DNA of 64,000 nt from Alphaproteobacteria bacterium (GTDB lineage: Bacteria; Pseudomonadota; Alphaproteobacteria; Geminicoccales; Geminicoccaceae). Both the position numbers and the translations under genes were made by a program. Positions 260 to 59,697 of the stretch are shown here, piece after piece (the stretch's first letter is position 1; each line of letters opens with the position of its first letter). The stretch covers positions 124,001 to 188,000 of the forward strand of contig JALSGP010000012.1 in NCBI GenBank assembly GCA_026982705.1, read 5' to 3'. The notes beneath the pieces were generated by a model. The model was given only the letters and a program-made list of their open reading frames with translations. It was not told where the DNA came from and ran no database searches.

Positions 260-1774
260 GTGTGGTGGGTCGTCTATCTGTCGCTGCTGGGGACGCTGGC
301 GGTCTGGGCGCCGCCGCGCCTGTTCGACCCGCTGGACCCGCGCTTCCTGGTGATTCTCGGGGTGGTGGGGACCTGGCGCTACGGCTGGGGTGCGGTCCAT
401 CTGATCCGCGCCCATCTCTATCGCCGTGTCGTGTTCCCGCGCCTGCGGCGGCGGGCGGAGGCGGCCTTCGCGGCCCTCACCGCTCCCGACGACGGGGACG
501 AAGGGAGGTCCGCCCGGCTGCCCCACGTCTTCCTGGTGATCACCGGCTATCGGTACGAAGCCGCGGTGACGGCCGCCTGCTGGCGGGCGGCGGTGCTGGA
601 GGCCATGCGCTACGGCGGACCCGTCACCCTCGTCGCCTCGCTGGTGGAGCCGGCCGACCGCCGGTTGGTCAAGGACGTCTTCCGGGTGCTGGCGCCGCCG
701 GCGCGGGTCCGGCTGGTGCTGGTGGAGCTGCCGCCGGAGGGCAAGCGCGAGGCGCTCGCCGCCGCGCTGGTGGCGGTGGCGCGGCGGGCGCCGCGAGCGG
801 ACGACGTGGTGGCGCTGATGGACGGGGACACCCTCCTCACCCCGCGCTGTCTGCGACGCACGGTCCCGCTCCTGAGCCTCGCGCCGCGACCGGGCGGCGT
901 CACCACCGACGAACGCCCCCTCGTCCGCGGTTCCCGGCTGGTGCGCGCCTGGTTCGCCCTGCGCTTCGCCCAGCGCCACCTCTACATGTGTTCCCTCGCC
1001 CTCTCGCGGCGCCTTCTGGTGATGACCGGCCGCTTCTCCCTCTATCCGGCCCACGTCGCCACCGATCCCGCCTTCATCGACCGCATCCGCCGGGACGAGA
1101 TCGAACACTGGCGCCTCGGCCGCATCCGGCTGCTCACGGGCGAGGACAAGTCCACCTGGCTCCACCTCCTCGAACACGGCCTCGACATGCTCTACGTGCC
1201 GGACGTCACCGTGCTCACCGCCGAAGCGCTGCCGGAGCGCCGCTTCCTCGCGGGTGCCACGCGGCTGATGCGGCGCTGGTTCGGCAACATGCTGCGGGGC
1301 AGCGTGCGGGCGCTGGCACTGGGACCGCGGCGGGTGGGCGCCTTCGCCTGGTGGTGCCTCGTGGATCAGCGCCTGTCCATGTGGACGCCGGTGCTGGGCC
1401 CCCTTGCCGCCATCGCCATCGCCGTCGCCGTCGATCCGCTGTTCCTCTACGCCTATCTGCTGTGGGTGCTGACCACGCGCCTGGTGCTGGTGCTGGGGCT
1501 GACGACGCTGCGGCCGGGTCTCGACGGCCTCGCGCCGCTGCTGCTCTACTTCAATCAGGTGTACGGAGCGCTGGTGAAACAGTGGGTGCTGTTCCGGCTC
1601 GACGACCAGCGCTGGACACGCCAGCCCATCGCGCGCGCGGGCCGGTCCGGGGCGGGCGCCCGCCTCTCCACCTGGCTCGCCCACGGCACCGCGGTGCTGG
1701 CACTGCTGGTGGCGGTGGGTTTCCTCACCGGCCTCCTGGAACTGCCGCCGGCGTCCGCCGTCGTCCTGCCCTGA
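260..1774 (+). CDS. alg8: Alg8-like family 2 glycosyltransferase (polymannuronate-type synthase catalytic subunit)
   Basis: This 504-residue membrane glycosyltransferase resembles Alg8, the inner-membrane enzyme that polymerises GDP-mannuronate in alginate producers. A hydrophobic N-terminal segment is followed by a GT2 domain with DGD at 188-190, TTDE at 215-218, GEDKSTW at 294-300 and RRWFGN from 338. C-terminal membrane helices follow (roughly 360-450), then a tail reading FRLDDQRWTRQ, very like the Alg8 C terminus. The next gene encodes an Alg44-like partner 27 bases downstream, the expected pairing. No other alginate gene (algD, algG, algK, algE, algX, algL) is visible in the window. The sugar polymerised is therefore inferred and could be another hexose or hexuronate. 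Confidence 0.82.
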   Translation: MWWVVYLSLLGTLAVWAPPRLFDPLDPRFLVILGVVGTWRYGWGAVHLIRAHLYRRVVFPRLRRRAEAAFAALTAPDDGDEGRSARLPHVFLVITGYRYEAAVTAACWRAAVLEAMRYGGPVTLVASLVEPADRRLVKDVFRVLAPPARVRLVLVELPPEGKREALAAALVAVARRAPRADDVVALMDGDTLLTPRCLRRTVPLLSLAPRPGGVTTDERPLVRGSRLVRAWFALRFAQRHLYMCSLALSRRLLVMTGRFSLYPAHVATDPAFIDRIRRDEIEHWRLGRIRLLTGEDKSTWLHLLEHGLDMLYVPDVTVLTAEALPERRFLAGATRLMRRWFGNMLRGSVRALALGPRRVGAFAWWCLVDQRLSMWTPVLGPLAAIAIAVAVDPLFLYAYLLWVLTTRLVLVLGLTTLRPGLDGLAPLLLYFNQVYGALVKQWVLFRLDDQRWTRQPIARAGRSGAGARLSTWLAHGTAVLALLVAVGFLTGLLELPPASAVVLP

Positions 1775-1801
1775 GAAGGATCCATCGAGGGGGCCGCCTC
1801 C

Positions 1802-2833
1802 ATGGCCGAACCGCAGATCGTCGCCGAGACCGAGGTCCACCGCCGTCACGTGCGCCTGCGCATCCCCGTGGGCGTGGAGATCGACGGCGTGCGCTACGTC
1901 ACCGACGACTGGTCGGTGGGCGGCTTCGGCGTCAACGCCGAACTGCCGGGGCGGCGGCCGGGCGACCGCTTCACCGTCCGTCTCTTCCTGCCCTTCGAGG
2001 ACTTCGAGATCGTCCTGCCCGTGGACTGTGAGCTGGTCTACGTCACCGAGGACGGCGGCCGCTTCGGCTGCCGTTTCCTCGGCCTCTCCAAGGGCCAGCT
2101 CGAACTCTTCCGCTTCGTCGTGGACGCCTATCTGTCGGGGGAGATCGTGGGCGCCGGCGACGTGCTGGCGGTGGTGGCCCGGGCGGGCGAGCCGGCGCGG
2201 CTGCGACCGCTGCTGGAGGAGGAGGGGGGCGGACTGCGCCGCTGGCTGGGCCATGCCGCGCTCGCGCTGGCGGCGGTGGCGCTGCTGGGCCTCGCCGGGC
2301 TCGGCATCTGGCAGCGCTGGTTCGTGATCGAGACCGAGGACGCCGTCGTCTGGACGCCGCTGGTGACGCTGGAGGCACCGCTGGCCGGCAAGGTGGTGGC
2401 GGGACCCCGCAAGCCCATCTACGCCCCGGGTGACGTGGTGGCACGCATCGAGGCGCTGGACGAGCGGGTGGTGTTCCTGGAGAGTCCGTGCGAGTGCGCG
2501 GTGGTGAACTGGAAGACCCTGCCGGGCCAGTACGCCGCGCCGGGCGATCCGGTGCTGGTGATGGCGGACGCCAACGAGCCGCTGGTGGTGCGGGCGCGGC
2601 TGCCGGTCCGCGACGCGCTGCGGCTGGAGGTGGGACAGCGCGCCCAGGTGTGGCTGCCGGGCGAGGACGAGCCGCGCCTCGCCCAGATCATCCGCATCGA
2701 CTTCGGCCCCGATCTCGCCCGCCTCGGCGCCGGCGGCGATCCCGGCCCGCGCCGGGTGCTGGTCCATCTGCGGCCGGACCGCCCCTTCGACTTCGATCGG
2801 CTCGGCAGTCTCGTGCGCGTCCGTTTCCTCTGA
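1802..2833 (+). CDS. alg44: Alg44-like PilZ/HlyD-type co-polymerase
   Basis: The 343-residue protein has a cytoplasmic N-terminal PilZ domain, one membrane helix (about 152-177) and a periplasmic barrel-sandwich/HlyD-like region. This is the Alg44 architecture. The PilZ c-di-GMP-binding residues are intact: RxxxR at 14-18 and DxSxxG at 36-41. In alginate systems c-di-GMP bound here switches on Alg8, so the pair should be activated post-translationally by this second messenger. It lies directly after the Alg8-like gene in the same direction and is probably cotranscribed. The start is the ATG at 1802. The only diguanylate cyclase in the window is near 59 kb, and no functional link to it is shown by the sequence. 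Confidence 0.82.
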   Translation: MAEPQIVAETEVHRRHVRLRIPVGVEIDGVRYVTDDWSVGGFGVNAELPGRRPGDRFTVRLFLPFEDFEIVLPVDCELVYVTEDGGRFGCRFLGLSKGQLELFRFVVDAYLSGEIVGAGDVLAVVARAGEPARLRPLLEEEGGGLRRWLGHAALALAAVALLGLAGLGIWQRWFVIETEDAVVWTPLVTLEAPLAGKVVAGPRKPIYAPGDVVARIEALDERVVFLESPCECAVVNWKTLPGQYAAPGDPVLVMADANEPLVVRARLPVRDALRLEVGQRAQVWLPGEDEPRLAQIIRIDFGPDLARLGAGGDPGPRRVLVHLRPDRPFDFDRLGSLVRVRFL

Positions 2834-2856: not shown

Positions 2857-3450
2857 TCAGGGATCCGTCGCGACCCGCCGCAGGCGGCCGCTCGCGATGT
2901 CGAACACGAGACCATGGAGGCGCAGCGGCCGGCTGCGGCGCAGCCGGCGCACCAGCGGCAGCCCGGCGAGCCGGTGGAGCTGATCGGCGACGTTGAGCGC
3001 CACCAGCCGCGAGAGACGGTCCCCCGCCACCCCGTCTCGTCCCAGTTCGTCGGCACGGCTTCGCGCGAGCTGCCGCACCGGTCGCAGCCAGTCGTCCACG
3101 AGGGCGCCCCGCGGTTCCTCCAGCGCCCGGGCCACGCCGCCGCAGCCCTCGTGGCCGCAGACCACCACCTCCTCGATGCCCAGCTCCCCGAGGCCGAACT
3201 CCAGCACCGACAGCAGGTTCGGGTCGTCGGGACGGACCAGGTTGGCGACATTGCGGTGGACGAAGAGCGCCCCCGGCCCCACGTCGACGATGGTCTCGGG
3301 CGCGACGCGACTGTCGGAGCAGCCGATCCAGAGACAGAAGGGACGCTGGCCGCGGGCGAGACGGGCGAAGATCTCCGGGTCCTCGGCCGTCCGCCGCGCG
3401 GCCCAGGCCCGGTTGCGGGCGATCAGCTCGCCGATCCGATCGGGGGACAC
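2857..3450 (-). CDS. Beta-class carbonic anhydrase
   Basis: This enzyme interconverts carbon dioxide and bicarbonate in the cytoplasm. All beta-class zinc and catalytic residues are visible: C44, D46 and R48 in the CSDSR motif, then H100 and C103 in the GHEGCGG motif. The 197-residue length is at the short end for the family, because the C-terminal region after about 175 is brief. It lies just downstream of moaA on the same strand (17-base gap) and converges with the Alg44-like gene. Joint transcription with moaA is plausible, but no functional link is implied. Confidence 0.9.
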   Translation of the reverse strand: MSPDRIGELIARNRAWAARRTAEDPEIFARLARGQRPFCLWIGCSDSRVAPETIVDVGPGALFVHRNVANLVRPDDPNLLSVLEFGLGELGIEEVVVCGHEGCGGVARALEEPRGALVDDWLRPVRQLARSRADELGRDGVAGDRLSRLVALNVADQLHRLAGLPLVRRLRRSRPLRLHGLVFDIASGRLRRVATDP

Positions 3451-6387: not shown

Positions 6388-7704
6388 TCACCGTTCGGCG
6401 AGGGCGCGGCCGGTGACCCTCTCGACCCCGGCGAGGAAGTAGTCGAGCAGGGTCCGGCGGCCGGTGTGGAACTCCACGTCCACCACCATCCCCGGCTGCA
6501 GCCGCCGGCGCCAGGTGGCGAAATCGGGCGTCGCGGGGTCGAGGACGATCTCGACGCGATAGACGGGCTCGGCCCCGGGTGCCGGCGGATCCGCGTCGGC
6601 GTCGATGCGGCGGATGCGGCCCCGCAGCGTGCCGTAGCGGGTGAAGTCGAAGGCCCGCACCTTGAGGGTGGCCGGGGTGCCGGGGGCGAGGGCGCCCACG
6701 TCGCGATTCGCCACCACCGCCCGCACCACCAGCTCCTCGTCGGAGGGGACCACTTCCAGGAGCGGCGCGTTGGCGGCCACCGCCTGGCCCGGGGCCCGCA
6801 CCGAGAGTCGTCGCACGAAGCCGGCCACCGGCGCCGTCACCAGCCGCGCCCGCCGGCGCCGTTCCAGCTCGGCGATGGCGGTCTCGAGGGTGGCGAGCTC
6901 GGCGCGGAGCCGGCCGAGGCGGTCGCCCAGTCGCGCCTCGCGGTCGGCACGGAAGGCGGCGAGCCGGCTCTCCGCCTCGGCCAGGGCCGCCCGTGCCCGC
7001 GCCAGCCGACCGCCGAGCGCCTGCAGGCGCGACTCGAGGGCCGCCAGCTCCCGCGCCCGCGCCAGCGCCTCGATGCGGGGATAGAGCCCCTGATCGGCCA
7101 GCTCGCGCACCGCCCGCTCCTGTTTCGCCAGGAGCTCGCGCTGGGTGGCGAGGCCCGCCCGCTCCGCCTCCAGCCGCCGCAGCTCCGCCCGCCGCGCCGC
7201 CACCTCCTGCTCCAGCCCCCGCAGGCTCTCCGCATCGGCCCGTCGCCGCGAGGCCAGGAGCTCGCGCTGGGCCGCCACCAGATCGGGCCGCGCCGCCAGG
7301 AGTTCGGCCGGGAATGCGGGAACGCCGCCGTCGCGCTCCGCCTCGATGCGGGCGATCTCGGCCAGCAGCACGAAGCGGCGGGCGCGACGCTCGGCGAGCG
7401 CGCTCCGCAGATCGCCGTCCTCCAGCAGCAGGAGCGGCTGCCGTGCCCGCACCCGTGCGCCCTCGCGCACGTAGATGGCCGCCACCCGCCCGCCCTCGGG
7501 ATGGTTCACCACGCGGGCGCGGCCGGCCGGCTCGATGCGGCCCTCGGCGAAGACCAGCACGTCGAGGGGCGCGAGGGCGAGCCAGGCCCCCACCGCCACC
7601 AGCAGCGCCGCGATGGCCACCGCCACCGCCCCGGCGGTGCGCGGCGGCGCCTCGAGACGACGGGCGGCGTCGGGCGGCGGCGCGAGGGGGACGGCGCGGG
7701 CCAC
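6388..7704 (-). CDS. HlyD-family membrane fusion protein of a type I secretion system
   Basis: The 438-residue adaptor would bridge the inner-membrane ABC exporter and a TolC-like channel. It has a short cytoplasmic N terminus, one membrane helix (about 25-47), a biotinyl/lipoyl half-motif, a long arginine- and glutamate-rich coiled coil (about 105-300) and a C-terminal beta-barrel region. Length and layout match the HlyD/LapC/PrsE class, which is longer than RND adaptors. It starts 6 bases after the stop of the upstream ABC exporter gene, so the two form an operon. No obvious RTX or adhesin substrate is encoded in the window. Confidence 0.88.
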   Translation of the reverse strand: MARAVPLAPPPDAARRLEAPPRTAGAVAVAIAALLVAVGAWLALAPLDVLVFAEGRIEPAGRARVVNHPEGGRVAAIYVREGARVRARQPLLLLEDGDLRSALAERRARRFVLLAEIARIEAERDGGVPAFPAELLAARPDLVAAQRELLASRRRADAESLRGLEQEVAARRAELRRLEAERAGLATQRELLAKQERAVRELADQGLYPRIEALARARELAALESRLQALGGRLARARAALAEAESRLAAFRADREARLGDRLGRLRAELATLETAIAELERRRRARLVTAPVAGFVRRLSVRAPGQAVAANAPLLEVVPSDEELVVRAVVANRDVGALAPGTPATLKVRAFDFTRYGTLRGRIRRIDADADPPAPGAEPVYRVEIVLDPATPDFATWRRRLQPGMVVDVEFHTGRRTLLDYFLAGVERVTGRALAER

Positions 7705-7710
7705 GGCCGG

Positions 7711-9879
7711 TCAGCTCGCCACGTGGAGACCGCCGCGGCGCGGGGCGCCGCCCCGGCGCACCAGCTCGGCGATCTCGCCGGCGGGACCGTCCCGCACCAC
7801 CCGGCCGTCGCGCAGCAGCACCGCCCGGCCGCAGGCGGCGATGGTGCTGGGGCGGTGGGTGACCAGGAGGATGGTGCGGCCGCGTCCCGCCCGCTGGAGA
7901 TTGGCCAGGAGATGGCGCTCGGTGGCGTGGTCGAGGGCGCTGGTGGCCTCGTCCAGCAGCAACACGCGCGGATTGCGCACCAGCGCCCGGGCGATGCACA
8001 CGAGCTGCTTCTGGCCGGTGGAGAGGCCGCTGCCGCCCTCGCCGAGGCGGGTGTCGTAGCCGCGAGGCAGGCGGGTGACGAGATCGTGGAGGCCGGCGAA
8101 ACGGGCCGCCGCCACCACCCGGGCGAAGGGACAGTCCGGCATGCCGAGGGCGATGTTCTCGGCGATGGTGCCGGCGAAGAGCTGGAGCTCCTGGGGCACG
8201 TAGCCGAGCTGGCGGCGCCACACCTCCGCCGGCAGATGGCGGACGTCGTAGCCGTCCACCAGCACCCGCCCGTCCTCGGGCTCCAGCAGTCCCGCCACCA
8301 GCATGGCGAGGGTGCTCTTGCCGGAGCCGGGCGGACCGGCGATGGCCAGCATGGTGCCCGGCGGAATGTCGAGGTCGATGCCGTCCACCGCCGGCAGCCG
8401 CTCGCCGCCGTAGCGGAAGCGCACCCGCTCGAGACGGATGTGGCCGCGGACGGTGAAGTCGTGGGCGATGGCGGGCCGCGGCACGGTCTCCGCCGCCTCC
8501 CGCAGGAAGGCGTCCACCCGCGCCCAGGCCTCGCGCGCCTGCTGGAGCTGGGGCCAGGAGAGGAAGAGCTGGCGCACCGGAGCGAGGGTCCGGGCGGCGA
8601 GGATGGAGGCGGCCACCAGTCCGCCCACCGAGAGCTCGCCGGCCACCACCATGCGCGCGCCCACGAAGACCAGCAGCACCACCGCCCCGTGCTGGAGTGC
8701 CTGGGCCACCGCGCCGGTGGCCTGGCCGAGGCGGCCGGCGGCGAGTCCGCTCCACGCCGAATCCACGAGCGGTCCCGCATAGCGGCGCTCGATCTCCGGC
8801 TCCAGCGCCAGTCCCTTCACCGTGAGGGCGTTCTGCACCGCCTCGACGAGGGCGGCGGTGCGGGCGGCGCCGCTGCGGGCGTGCAGCGGCCGCAGCCGCC
8901 GCTGCCGGCGCTGGGCCAGATAGCCCAGGAGCGCGAAGCCGAGGGCGGCGGCGGCGGCGATGACCGCGAGGGGCGGGGCGAGCATCAGCAGCGCCCCGAA
9001 GAACAGGGAGACGAACAGCAGATCCACCAGGAACAGCGGCAGATGGCCGGAGAGGAAGGCGCGCAGGGCATCCAGCTGGCGCAGGCGCTCGAACAGATGG
9101 CCCGCGGGCAGTCGGGCGAGGGCGGCATAGGGCAGCGCCAGCAGCCGGCGGCCCAGCTCGCGGCCCACCGCCACGTCGAGGCGGGCGCCGGTGTGGGCGG
9201 CGACGTGGCCGCGCAGCAGCCGCAGCAGCAGCTCGAAGGCCACCAGCGTCGCCATCGCCACCACCAGCACGTCGAGGGTGGAGAGGGCGCCGTGGCGGAT
9301 CACCCGGTTGTAGACGGTCATCATGAAGAGCGGGGTGGCGAGGGCCAGCAGGTTCACCACCACGCTGGCGACGGCGATCTGCAGGAACTGGGGGAGGAAG
9401 GCACGGCCGAAGACGAGATCGCCGAGGCCCCCGCCGCCGGTGCGCGCCGCCGGTGCCGGCAGCGTCGGGTCCCGCCGCCGGCCGCGGACGTGGAGGGTGA
9501 CGATGCGGGGCCGGTCGGCCAGCAGCCCCACGAGGCTGCGCGGAAGAGTCTCGTCGCCGACGGGATCGTACAGCCACAGGCGCGGCCCGCGGCGCTCGCG
9601 GACGATGCGCAGCCGCCCGTCCGGGAAGACCAGCAGGAAGGGCGGGGTGACGGCGGCGAGGCGACGACGGGTGGCACGCCGGCTGCGCCAGACCAGCCCC
9701 AGCCGCTCGGCGGCGGTGCGGAGCGTCCGCGCGTCCTCCGGATCCTCCTCGAGCCCGCTCTCCCGCCGCAACCGCGCCAGGGTGGCGGCATCCGCCTCCA
9801 GCCCCAGGATCTGCGCGAACAGCCGCAGCCACGCCTCGACCGAGGAATCCGCGAGCGGCAGACGCCGCGTTCCGCTCAT
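7711..9879 (-). CDS. Type I secretion ABC exporter (permease-ATPase) with inactive C39-like domain
   Basis: A 722-residue exporter with the LapB/HlyB-type order. Residues 10-130 form a C39 peptidase-like domain, 160-440 the six-helix ABC membrane domain, and 480-720 the ATPase. The ATPase has Walker A GPPGSGKST (515-523), signature LSTGQKQ (619-625), Walker B with DEAT (643-646) and H-loop H675. The N-terminal domain has no cysteine or suitable histidine, so it cannot cleave a leader. In this class it is a docking domain for unfolded substrate. I chose ATG 9879 because a GGAGCGGG ribosome site precedes it; an upstream in-frame ATG at 9948 is less likely. An exact 12-bp sequence upstream recurs before the TolC-like gene. 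Confidence 0.9.
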   Translation of the reverse strand: MSGTRRLPLADSSVEAWLRLFAQILGLEADAATLARLRRESGLEEDPEDARTLRTAAERLGLVWRSRRATRRRLAAVTPPFLLVFPDGRLRIVRERRGPRLWLYDPVGDETLPRSLVGLLADRPRIVTLHVRGRRRDPTLPAPAARTGGGGLGDLVFGRAFLPQFLQIAVASVVVNLLALATPLFMMTVYNRVIRHGALSTLDVLVVAMATLVAFELLLRLLRGHVAAHTGARLDVAVGRELGRRLLALPYAALARLPAGHLFERLRQLDALRAFLSGHLPLFLVDLLFVSLFFGALLMLAPPLAVIAAAAALGFALLGYLAQRRQRRLRPLHARSGAARTAALVEAVQNALTVKGLALEPEIERRYAGPLVDSAWSGLAAGRLGQATGAVAQALQHGAVVLLVFVGARMVVAGELSVGGLVAASILAARTLAPVRQLFLSWPQLQQAREAWARVDAFLREAAETVPRPAIAHDFTVRGHIRLERVRFRYGGERLPAVDGIDLDIPPGTMLAIAGPPGSGKSTLAMLVAGLLEPEDGRVLVDGYDVRHLPAEVWRRQLGYVPQELQLFAGTIAENIALGMPDCPFARVVAAARFAGLHDLVTRLPRGYDTRLGEGGSGLSTGQKQLVCIARALVRNPRVLLLDEATSALDHATERHLLANLQRAGRGRTILLVTHRPSTIAACGRAVLLRDGRVVRDGPAGEIAELVRRGGAPRRGGLHVAS

Positions 9880-9951
9880 CCGACCCGCTCCCCGCTGACG
9901 CCGGTGTGCGCCCGTTATCCTTTTACGCGGAGCGTGAACGGATGGCAATAA

Positions 9952-58874: not shown

Positions 58875-59697
58875 GGGCGCGGCGGCGCTTCTCGGCATAG
58901 AGCCCGGCATCGGCCCGGCGCACCAGCTCGCCGAGCTCGCGGCCGTGGTCGGGGAAGAGGGCGGTGCCGCAGCTCGCCCCCACCCGTATCACGCGGCCGT
59001 CGATCTCCACCGGCGCCTCCACCAGCCGCCGCACCTTGGCCGCCACCACGGCGAGGCGGTCGGCCGTGTCCACCTCCTCCACCACCACGGCGAACTCGTC
59101 GCCGCCGAGGCGGGCCACCGTGTCGGAGCGGCGCAGGCCGCGCCGCAGGCGGGCGGCCACCGTCTCCAGCACCAGGTCGCCGAGATCGTGACCGAAGCGG
59201 TCGTTGACCGCCTTGAAACCGTCCAGGTCCACCAGCACCAGCCCGCCGGCGCGGCCACGGCGTTCGGCCCGGGCCACGGCATCCCGCAGCTTCTCTTCCA
59301 GCAGCCAGCGATTGGCGAGCCCGGTGAGGGCGTCGTGGGTGGCGCGGTGCACCAGCCGCCGCCAGTCGGACCGCGCCCGGCGCAGTCCCTCCAGCGCCGA
59401 CCGCAAGGTGCGCGCGCAGGCCCGGGTGGGATCGAGGGGACCGCCGGCCGCCACCGGCCAGATCACCGCCCCCGGTGCCAGCGCCTGCAAGCGCAAGAGG
59501 GTGGCGAGCCCCCGTCCCCGGACGCCCAGGTCCAGCACCATCAGATCCACCGGCCCATCGGCGAGGCGGGCGAGGGCGGCGTCCTCGTCGGCCACGCGCA
59601 GGAGTTCGAGCGCACCGCCGGCGAGCCGGCACAGGCGGTGCTCCAGTCCCGCGAGGGCCCGGGTTGCGGGGCCGATCACCAGAACCGTGAGGTGCAC
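58861..59697 (-). CDS. Diguanylate cyclase with degenerate receiver-like domain
   Basis: The 278-residue protein has an N-terminal receiver-like domain (about 1-105) and a C-terminal GGDEF domain. The active-site motif GGDEF is at 198-202, and the product-inhibition I-site RRSD lies five residues upstream at 189-192, so c-di-GMP synthesis with feedback control is expected. The receiver lacks the usual acidic pair after its first strand (VLVIGPATRA), although D56 in DLMVLDLG could match the phosphoacceptor. Its regulation by phosphorylation is doubtful. I chose the GTG at 59697, which has GGGAG 8 bases before it. Divergent from mnmG. Confidence 0.85.
   Translation of the reverse strand: MHLTVLVIGPATRALAGLEHRLCRLAGGALELLRVADEDAALARLADGPVDLMVLDLGVRGRGLATLLRLQALAPGAVIWPVAAGGPLDPTRACARTLRSALEGLRRARSDWRRLVHRATHDALTGLANRWLLEEKLRDAVARAERRGRAGGLVLVDLDGFKAVNDRFGHDLGDLVLETVAARLRRGLRRSDTVARLGGDEFAVVVEEVDTADRLAVVAAKVRRLVEAPVEIDGRVIRVGASCGTALFPDHGRELGELVRRADAGLYAEKRRRALISA

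Follow-up and report, generated by a model that had tools for sequence, protein, structure and literature searches.

An Alg8–Alg44-like gene pair outside an alginate operon in Geminicoccaceae: a candidate c-di-GMP-switched uronan synthase with an unlinked lyase

Introduction

In Pseudomonas aeruginosa, c-di-GMP bound to the PilZ domain of Alg44 lets Alg8–Alg44 polymerise GDP-mannuronate (PMC8829089, PMC8461298), and AlgL rids the periplasm of polymer (PMC8829089). Reduction of the system is known as such, since for certain environmental bacteria losses of algKE and of algGXLIJF are on record (Bundalovic-Torma et al., 2020; PMC7112194). Alphaproteobacterial alginate operons hold several of algD, algA, algG, and algK, and often algI, algJ, algX, or algF, in one cluster. 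BgsB–BgsA of Sinorhizobium has a two-gene layout that includes an adaptor-like partner, and it is not known to have a pore. It is a c-di-GMP-activated GT2 synthase of mixed-linkage glucan (PMC5567048). Among hairpin-less periplasmic adaptors, BesA needs a different means of recruiting its TolC duct (PMC3807786).

Here we describe a gene pair of a Geminicoccaceae genome that resembles Alg8–Alg44 of Pseudomonas and Azotobacter in its two protein families, gene order, and catalytic motifs, and whose partner protein keeps the counterparts of Alg44 R17, R21, and R95. Unlike the Pseudomonas and Azotobacter genes, it stands without operon partners, falls in a sister clade, has its lyase and AlgD-like genes unlinked, and lies in a genome without AlgE or AlgX/J. 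The atypical operons reported before (PMC7112194) are altered operons, whereas in Geminicoccaceae a bare pair is fixed across the family, with a co-occurring unlinked lyase. Compared by description, BgsA differs in having no PilZ control, as c-di-GMP is bound by a C-terminal domain of BgsA itself, and in its beta-glucan product; the partner described here has a PilZ domain. BesA-type adaptors (PMC3807786) provide the nearest solved fold for the adaptor domain of this partner, but BesA is part of a drug efflux pump and the present domain is fused to a transmembrane helix and PilZ.

Results

The synthase and its partner

The window, meaning the whole stretch of DNA analyzed (64,000 nucleotides; G000:C12:124001-188000), belongs to a 2.66 Mb draft genome (G000) that is 99.7% complete. 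An Alg8-type GT2 synthase of 504 aa with a GTG start is encoded at 260–1774 (+), as assigned from Pfam (Glyco_tranf_2_3, PF13641, E 3.5e-34), identity, motifs, and a structural model. Its identity is 43–47% with Pseudomonas Alg8 and about 38–44% with the glycosyltransferases (GTs) of alphaproteobacterial alginate operons (Microvirga, Rhizobium, and Roseobacteraceae plasmids). The motifs GKR, DGD, TTD, TGR, GEDKS, RWxGN, and DQR are common to this GT and alginate-operon Alg8; DGD (residues 188–190; 821–829, +) is invariant in the family, and GEDKS (residues 294–298; 1139–1153, +) is the counterpart of the Alg8 GDDKS motif. NCBIfam and PDB sequence searches with the GT gave no match. The AlphaFold model (pLDDT 87) had hyaluronan and cellulose synthases as its nearest PDB folds, and these enzymes extrude their own product. 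Of the features that mark an Alg8, the GT2 fold, the membrane channel, and the DGD, (E/D)DKS, and RW motifs were found. An R replaces the Q of QxxRW, which we considered as a mark of an altered enzyme and rejected; alginate-operon Alg8s have Q, K, V, M, and others there, so the site is uninformative.

Twenty-seven bases downstream lies the partner gene (1802–2833, +; 343 aa), which Pfam, PDB, and modeling place as an Alg44-type co-polymerase composed of a PilZ domain, one transmembrane helix, and a periplasmic adaptor (membrane-fusion) domain. Both frames are intact. Pfam recognized PilZ (1.9e-8) and HlyD_3 (1.7e-7), and the only structures matched in a PDB sequence search were Alg44 PilZ domains (4RT0, E 1.1e-6). 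The sequence-only reading had described an intact and adjacent Alg8–Alg44-like pair, and the frames, the Pfam and PDB matches, and the GT identity agree with it. The PilZ domain (residues 14–118; 1841–2155, +), placed by alignment and fold match, has R14, R18, D36, S38, G41, and R87, and its model superposes on 4RT0 with a TM-score of 0.80 by target length. Its putative c-di-GMP residues are present as that reading had stated (RxxxR at 14–18, DxSxxG at 36–41); R14, R18, D36, S38, G41, R87, and C90 are invariant in 19 orthologues. R87 and C90 correspond to Alg44 R95 and C98 (numbering from PMC8461298). The helix is predicted at residues 143–174 (2228–2323, +), and the adaptor domain, which lacks an alpha-hairpin and has BesA as nearest fold, at residues 176–343 (2327–2830, +). 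The predicted architecture is thus that of Alg44, with a PilZ domain carrying c-di-GMP residues, a single transmembrane helix, and a periplasmic adaptor domain.

Two side observations concern this protein family. An SPCxC motif in the adaptor domain (residues 228–232; 2483–2497) is invariant in the 19 orthologues and may form a disulfide or bind a metal in the periplasm. The Alg44s of a Rhizobium and a Loktanella plasmid alginate operon (L083:13535, L084:13536) have lost RxxxR and part of DxSxxG, and c-di-GMP control may therefore be lost there.

Neighborhood of the pair

Immediately upstream is a gene for a PotD-like polyamine-binding protein, which ends at window position 156 and reaches about 930 bases further left, and 3′ of the pair is a carbonic anhydrase gene (2857–3450, −); both flanking genes had been named correctly. 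Left of window position 1, the genes named by eye from their translations were lon, dnaJ, an epimerase gene, lptD, surA, ksgA, gmk, mltG, fabF, acpP, a glutathione-synthetase-like gene, and the potD-like gene. No protein in the 18 kb left of the window matched any alginate reference protein, and no alg export or modification cluster is found there. The claim that nothing else of an alginate system is present holds for this neighborhood; it fails for the genome, where a PL5-type lyase and an AlgD-like protein are encoded at other sites.

The PotD-like gene is kept directly upstream of the pair in three genomes (G000, G002, G003), and a polyamine signal feeding the c-di-GMP output is conceivable. 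A type I secretion adaptor and ABC transporter genes lie 3.5 kb downstream of the pair (6388–9948, −), and RTX-repeat genes flank it in G022 (L059) and G012 (L069); a link of the pair to the secretion genes was dropped, as clustering recognized none at the relatives' loci. A divergent OmpR-type response regulator gene adjoins the pair at 15 loci (L047, L048, L051–L059, L069, L071–L073) and is not beside it in the genus of the window. Its identity with the regulator beside Roseobacteraceae alginate operons was rejected because the two share no similarity. One of the 13 GGDEF domains of the source genome is encoded within the window (58882–59343, −).

Distribution and phylogeny

The GT was present in 24 of the 32 Geminicoccaceae genomes sampled, including the source genome, and the GT–PilZ gene order was kept at the family loci that were read. 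In more than 20 family genomes the frames of the pair are intact, and catalytic and PilZ residues are invariant at 50–60% identity. In a midpoint-rooted tree of 54 GTs, 21 Geminicoccaceae loci formed one clade (support 100/98), whose sister group (97/89) comprised the full-operon Alg8s of Pseudomonas, Marinobacter, Microvirga, Rhizobium, Devosia, and Roseobacteraceae. The window GT, in this midpoint-rooted tree, therefore stands beside and not inside the ordinary alginate-operon clade; neither this tree nor the genes left of the window brought the refutation that the sequence-only reading had allowed for.

At the 21 Geminicoccaceae loci no algK/E/G/X/I/J/L reference match was found beside the pair, and the same search recovered full operons at the Pseudomonas, Marinobacter, Microvirga, Rhizobium, and Roseobacteraceae loci. 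The reference operons were checked on annotated plasmids, where the neighbors of alg8 are genes for a nucleotide sugar dehydrogenase, a sugar-phosphate nucleotidyltransferase, beta-helix, MBOAT, AlgF, and TPR proteins. Two Geminicoccaceae loci were exceptions, with an algD-like gene directly upstream in G022 (L059) and an algA-like GMP-PMI gene directly downstream in G006 (L060); these neighbors point to GDP-mannuronate.

The source genome also has a second, diverged pair in the order PilZ then GT (L010:11210-14118; G000:C2, about 77.2–80.1 kb), which adjoins guaB and whose GT is 39% identical. This second pair was found in G002, G004, G019, and G025 as well, and its GT groups with the G053 GT, whose neighbor is an algD-like gene. 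In another lineage (G009, G046; L061, L062), GT–PilZ is followed by an AlgL-like gene, and the locus of G046 has an additional Sel1-repeat AlgK-like gene.

Export and modification genes

AlgE (PF13372) and AlgX/J (PF16822) had no match in the whole 99.7% complete source genome, and few of the pair-bearing relatives had AlgE (4 of 27). One of two earlier suggestions was that the export and modification genes lie elsewhere; the genome-wide absence of AlgE and AlgX/J means that those genes do not simply do so. The pair's cluster has no algK or algE export gene (AlgK by locus search, AlgE genome-wide) and no acetylation gene of algI/J/F/X (AlgI and AlgF by locus search only). A locus-level search for the C5-epimerase gene algG gave no match at the source pair, and searches of the source pair and AlgD-like loci gave no algK/G/I/J/F reference match.

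Unlinked lyase

A PF05426 alginate-lyase homologue is encoded at C46:49121-49765, outside the cluster of the pair. In tests that ignore the shared ancestry of the genomes, pair and lyase co-occurred both over 61 genomes (24 with both, 3 with the pair only, 1 with the lyase only, 33 with neither; Fisher p 1e-12) and within the family (23, 1, 1, and 7, respectively; Fisher p 2e-5). The sole lyase-only genome is 82% complete. Within genus g6, G029 lacks pair and lyase, and five congeners have both.

The lyase gene stands alone at a conserved site between rpsD and purine genes (rpsD–purL) in most members, and its locus in the source genome gave no algK/G/I/J/F reference match. A signal peptide was judged by eye to be present. 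The protein keeps NNH and R(x6)Y, the counterparts of the P. aeruginosa AlgL catalytic residues H202, R249, and Y256 (PMC8829089); the counterparts of AlgL W205 and Y259 are not kept. The lyase tree groups it (99/100) with the operon-borne lyases of Microvirga, Rhizobium, Devosia, and Defluviimonas, its nearest relatives. In the source genome, a BcsA-like synthase with a C-terminal PilZ domain and an HlyD-type adaptor adjoin the lyase (L248:11215-15623, G000:C46); this third synthase-plus-adaptor pair of the genome is not seen at the lyase loci of relatives.

AlgD-like dehydrogenase and sugar donor

An unlinked AlgD-like dehydrogenase is encoded at C22:51838-53277. The protein carries a GDP-mannose-dehydrogenase-type signature (NAWHATKVAFANE), and its active-site loop is altered, with GGPCLGKD for GGSCLPKD. 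The Geminicoccaceae clade that holds it is the sister group of true AlgD and stands separate from Ugd; this clade also includes, on a long branch, the algD-like gene beside alg8 in G022. With the lyase, the AlgD-like gene, and the second PilZ–GT pair elsewhere in the genome, and an arrangement typical of the family, the earlier picture of an isolated pair has to be given up.

AlgD-like genes occurred in 17 of the 24 family genomes with the pair. The other seven, which include G008 (a single contig) and G004 (100% complete), had only Ugd-type or UDP-HexNAc-type dehydrogenases. In tests that likewise ignore shared ancestry, they were associated with the pair over 61 genomes (p 6e-7), and within the family the association was not significant (p 0.12). 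An obligate partnership was rejected on the latter ground, which leaves the AlgD-like protein as no more than the more probable source of the donor. For the supply of GDP-mannose, TIGR01479 homologues are present, the copies of the source genome scoring below the family cut-off. Beside the AlgD-like gene are curli-like genes recognized by eye (a CsgG-like and a curlin-repeat protein; L126:7417-9808), and in G029 the AlgD-like gene is interrupted by stops.

Discussion

Protein families, residue conservation, and clade structure were computed, as were the absence of AlgE and AlgX/J and the co-occurrence of the lyase. On this basis we propose that Geminicoccaceae have a dispersed, reduced, c-di-GMP-switched uronan synthase, probably of mannuronan, with its own clearing lyase; we give this reading a probability of roughly 0.6. 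Because the same parts and residues are present for the same steps as in P. aeruginosa, the same c-di-GMP switch and polymerization are likely by analogy. We infer that c-di-GMP would bind the PilZ domain of the Alg44-like protein and switch on the Alg8-like GT2, which would polymerize a nucleotide-activated uronic acid, most likely GDP-mannuronate; the unlinked AlgD-like dehydrogenase may supply this from GDP-mannose. The GT2 itself would push the chain across the membrane by way of its channel, and on the periplasmic side the adaptor domain of the Alg44-like protein would receive it. The PL5-type lyase, with its signal peptide, would cut or clear periplasmic polymer as AlgL does. As the AlgE pore and the AlgX/J acetylation proteins are missing, the polymer may be kept periplasmic, be short, or leave via another outer-membrane protein; since the modeled adaptor domain is hairpin-less and has BesA as its nearest fold, a TolC-type exit is possible.

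The substrate is the weakest step of the proposal, because seven pair-bearing family genomes lack an AlgD-like gene. The same machine might draw on another donor and make polyglucuronate or another uronan from UDP-GlcA, the product of Ugd, with a uronan lyase of broader specificity and an AlgD-like protein that serves another polysaccharide. Broad-specificity PL5 lyases are known, Ugd-type enzymes occur commonly among these genomes, pair and lyase occur together without AlgD-like genes in G004 and G008, and the closest solved fold of the GT, at fold level only, is hyaluronan synthase, a UDP-GlcA user. Members of the sister clade, however, sit with algD or other alginate genes, and algD-like and algA-like genes adjoin the pair in G022 and G006, so that we regard a different donor as unlikely. 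That the genome holds an ordinary alginate system with its export and modification genes merely scattered over the chromosome would fit the separate positions of the lyase and AlgD-like genes. It is poorly reconciled with the lack of AlgE and AlgX/J matches in so complete a genome, the scarcity of AlgE among relatives, and the empty searches for algK/G/I/J/F at all three source loci, and appears quite improbable.

A product that is no uronan, such as a beta-glucan or an amino-sugar polymer, would recall the layout of rhizobial BgsB–BgsA, as bgsBA is likewise a two-gene synthase and adaptor set without an export gene. We think this very improbable for a GT that is sister to alginate Alg8 and co-occurs with a lyase of alginate-operon type. 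Least credible of all is a functionless, decaying remnant of a lost alginate operon: partner genes are indeed missing, and G029 lacks pair and lyase and has a broken AlgD-like gene, but frames intact in more than 20 family genomes and residues invariant at 50–60% identity speak strongly against decay.

The switched uronan synthase with its clearing lyase has a wider, only tentative form: a family-wide two-gene machine and periplasmic lyase, without alginate pore or acetylation proteins, that would make a periplasmic or short-chain uronan or export it via the hairpin-less adaptor and a TolC-like duct, a pathway not described before. The literature search returned no report on such an orphan pair, nor on Geminicoccaceae exopolysaccharide; the literature searched contained no bare pair fixed in a family, in its own clade and with a co-occurring lyase at a separate site. 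Judged by analogy, the window pair is one that probably works like Alg8–Alg44, yet it lies outside the alginate operon as defined.

If the proposal is true, synthase, co-polymerase, and lyase without AlgE or AlgX/J would form a natural minimal alginate-type polymerase and would offer a way to ask what Alg8–Alg44 does alone and what the lyase is for. Another question it would bring within reach is whether AlgKE is needed for a synthase-dependent uronan to leave the cell or be of use to it. A lone pair and lyase without AlgE and AlgX/J poses the question of which polymer is made and by what exit it leaves the cell, and the pair points to a widespread c-di-GMP output in Geminicoccaceae.
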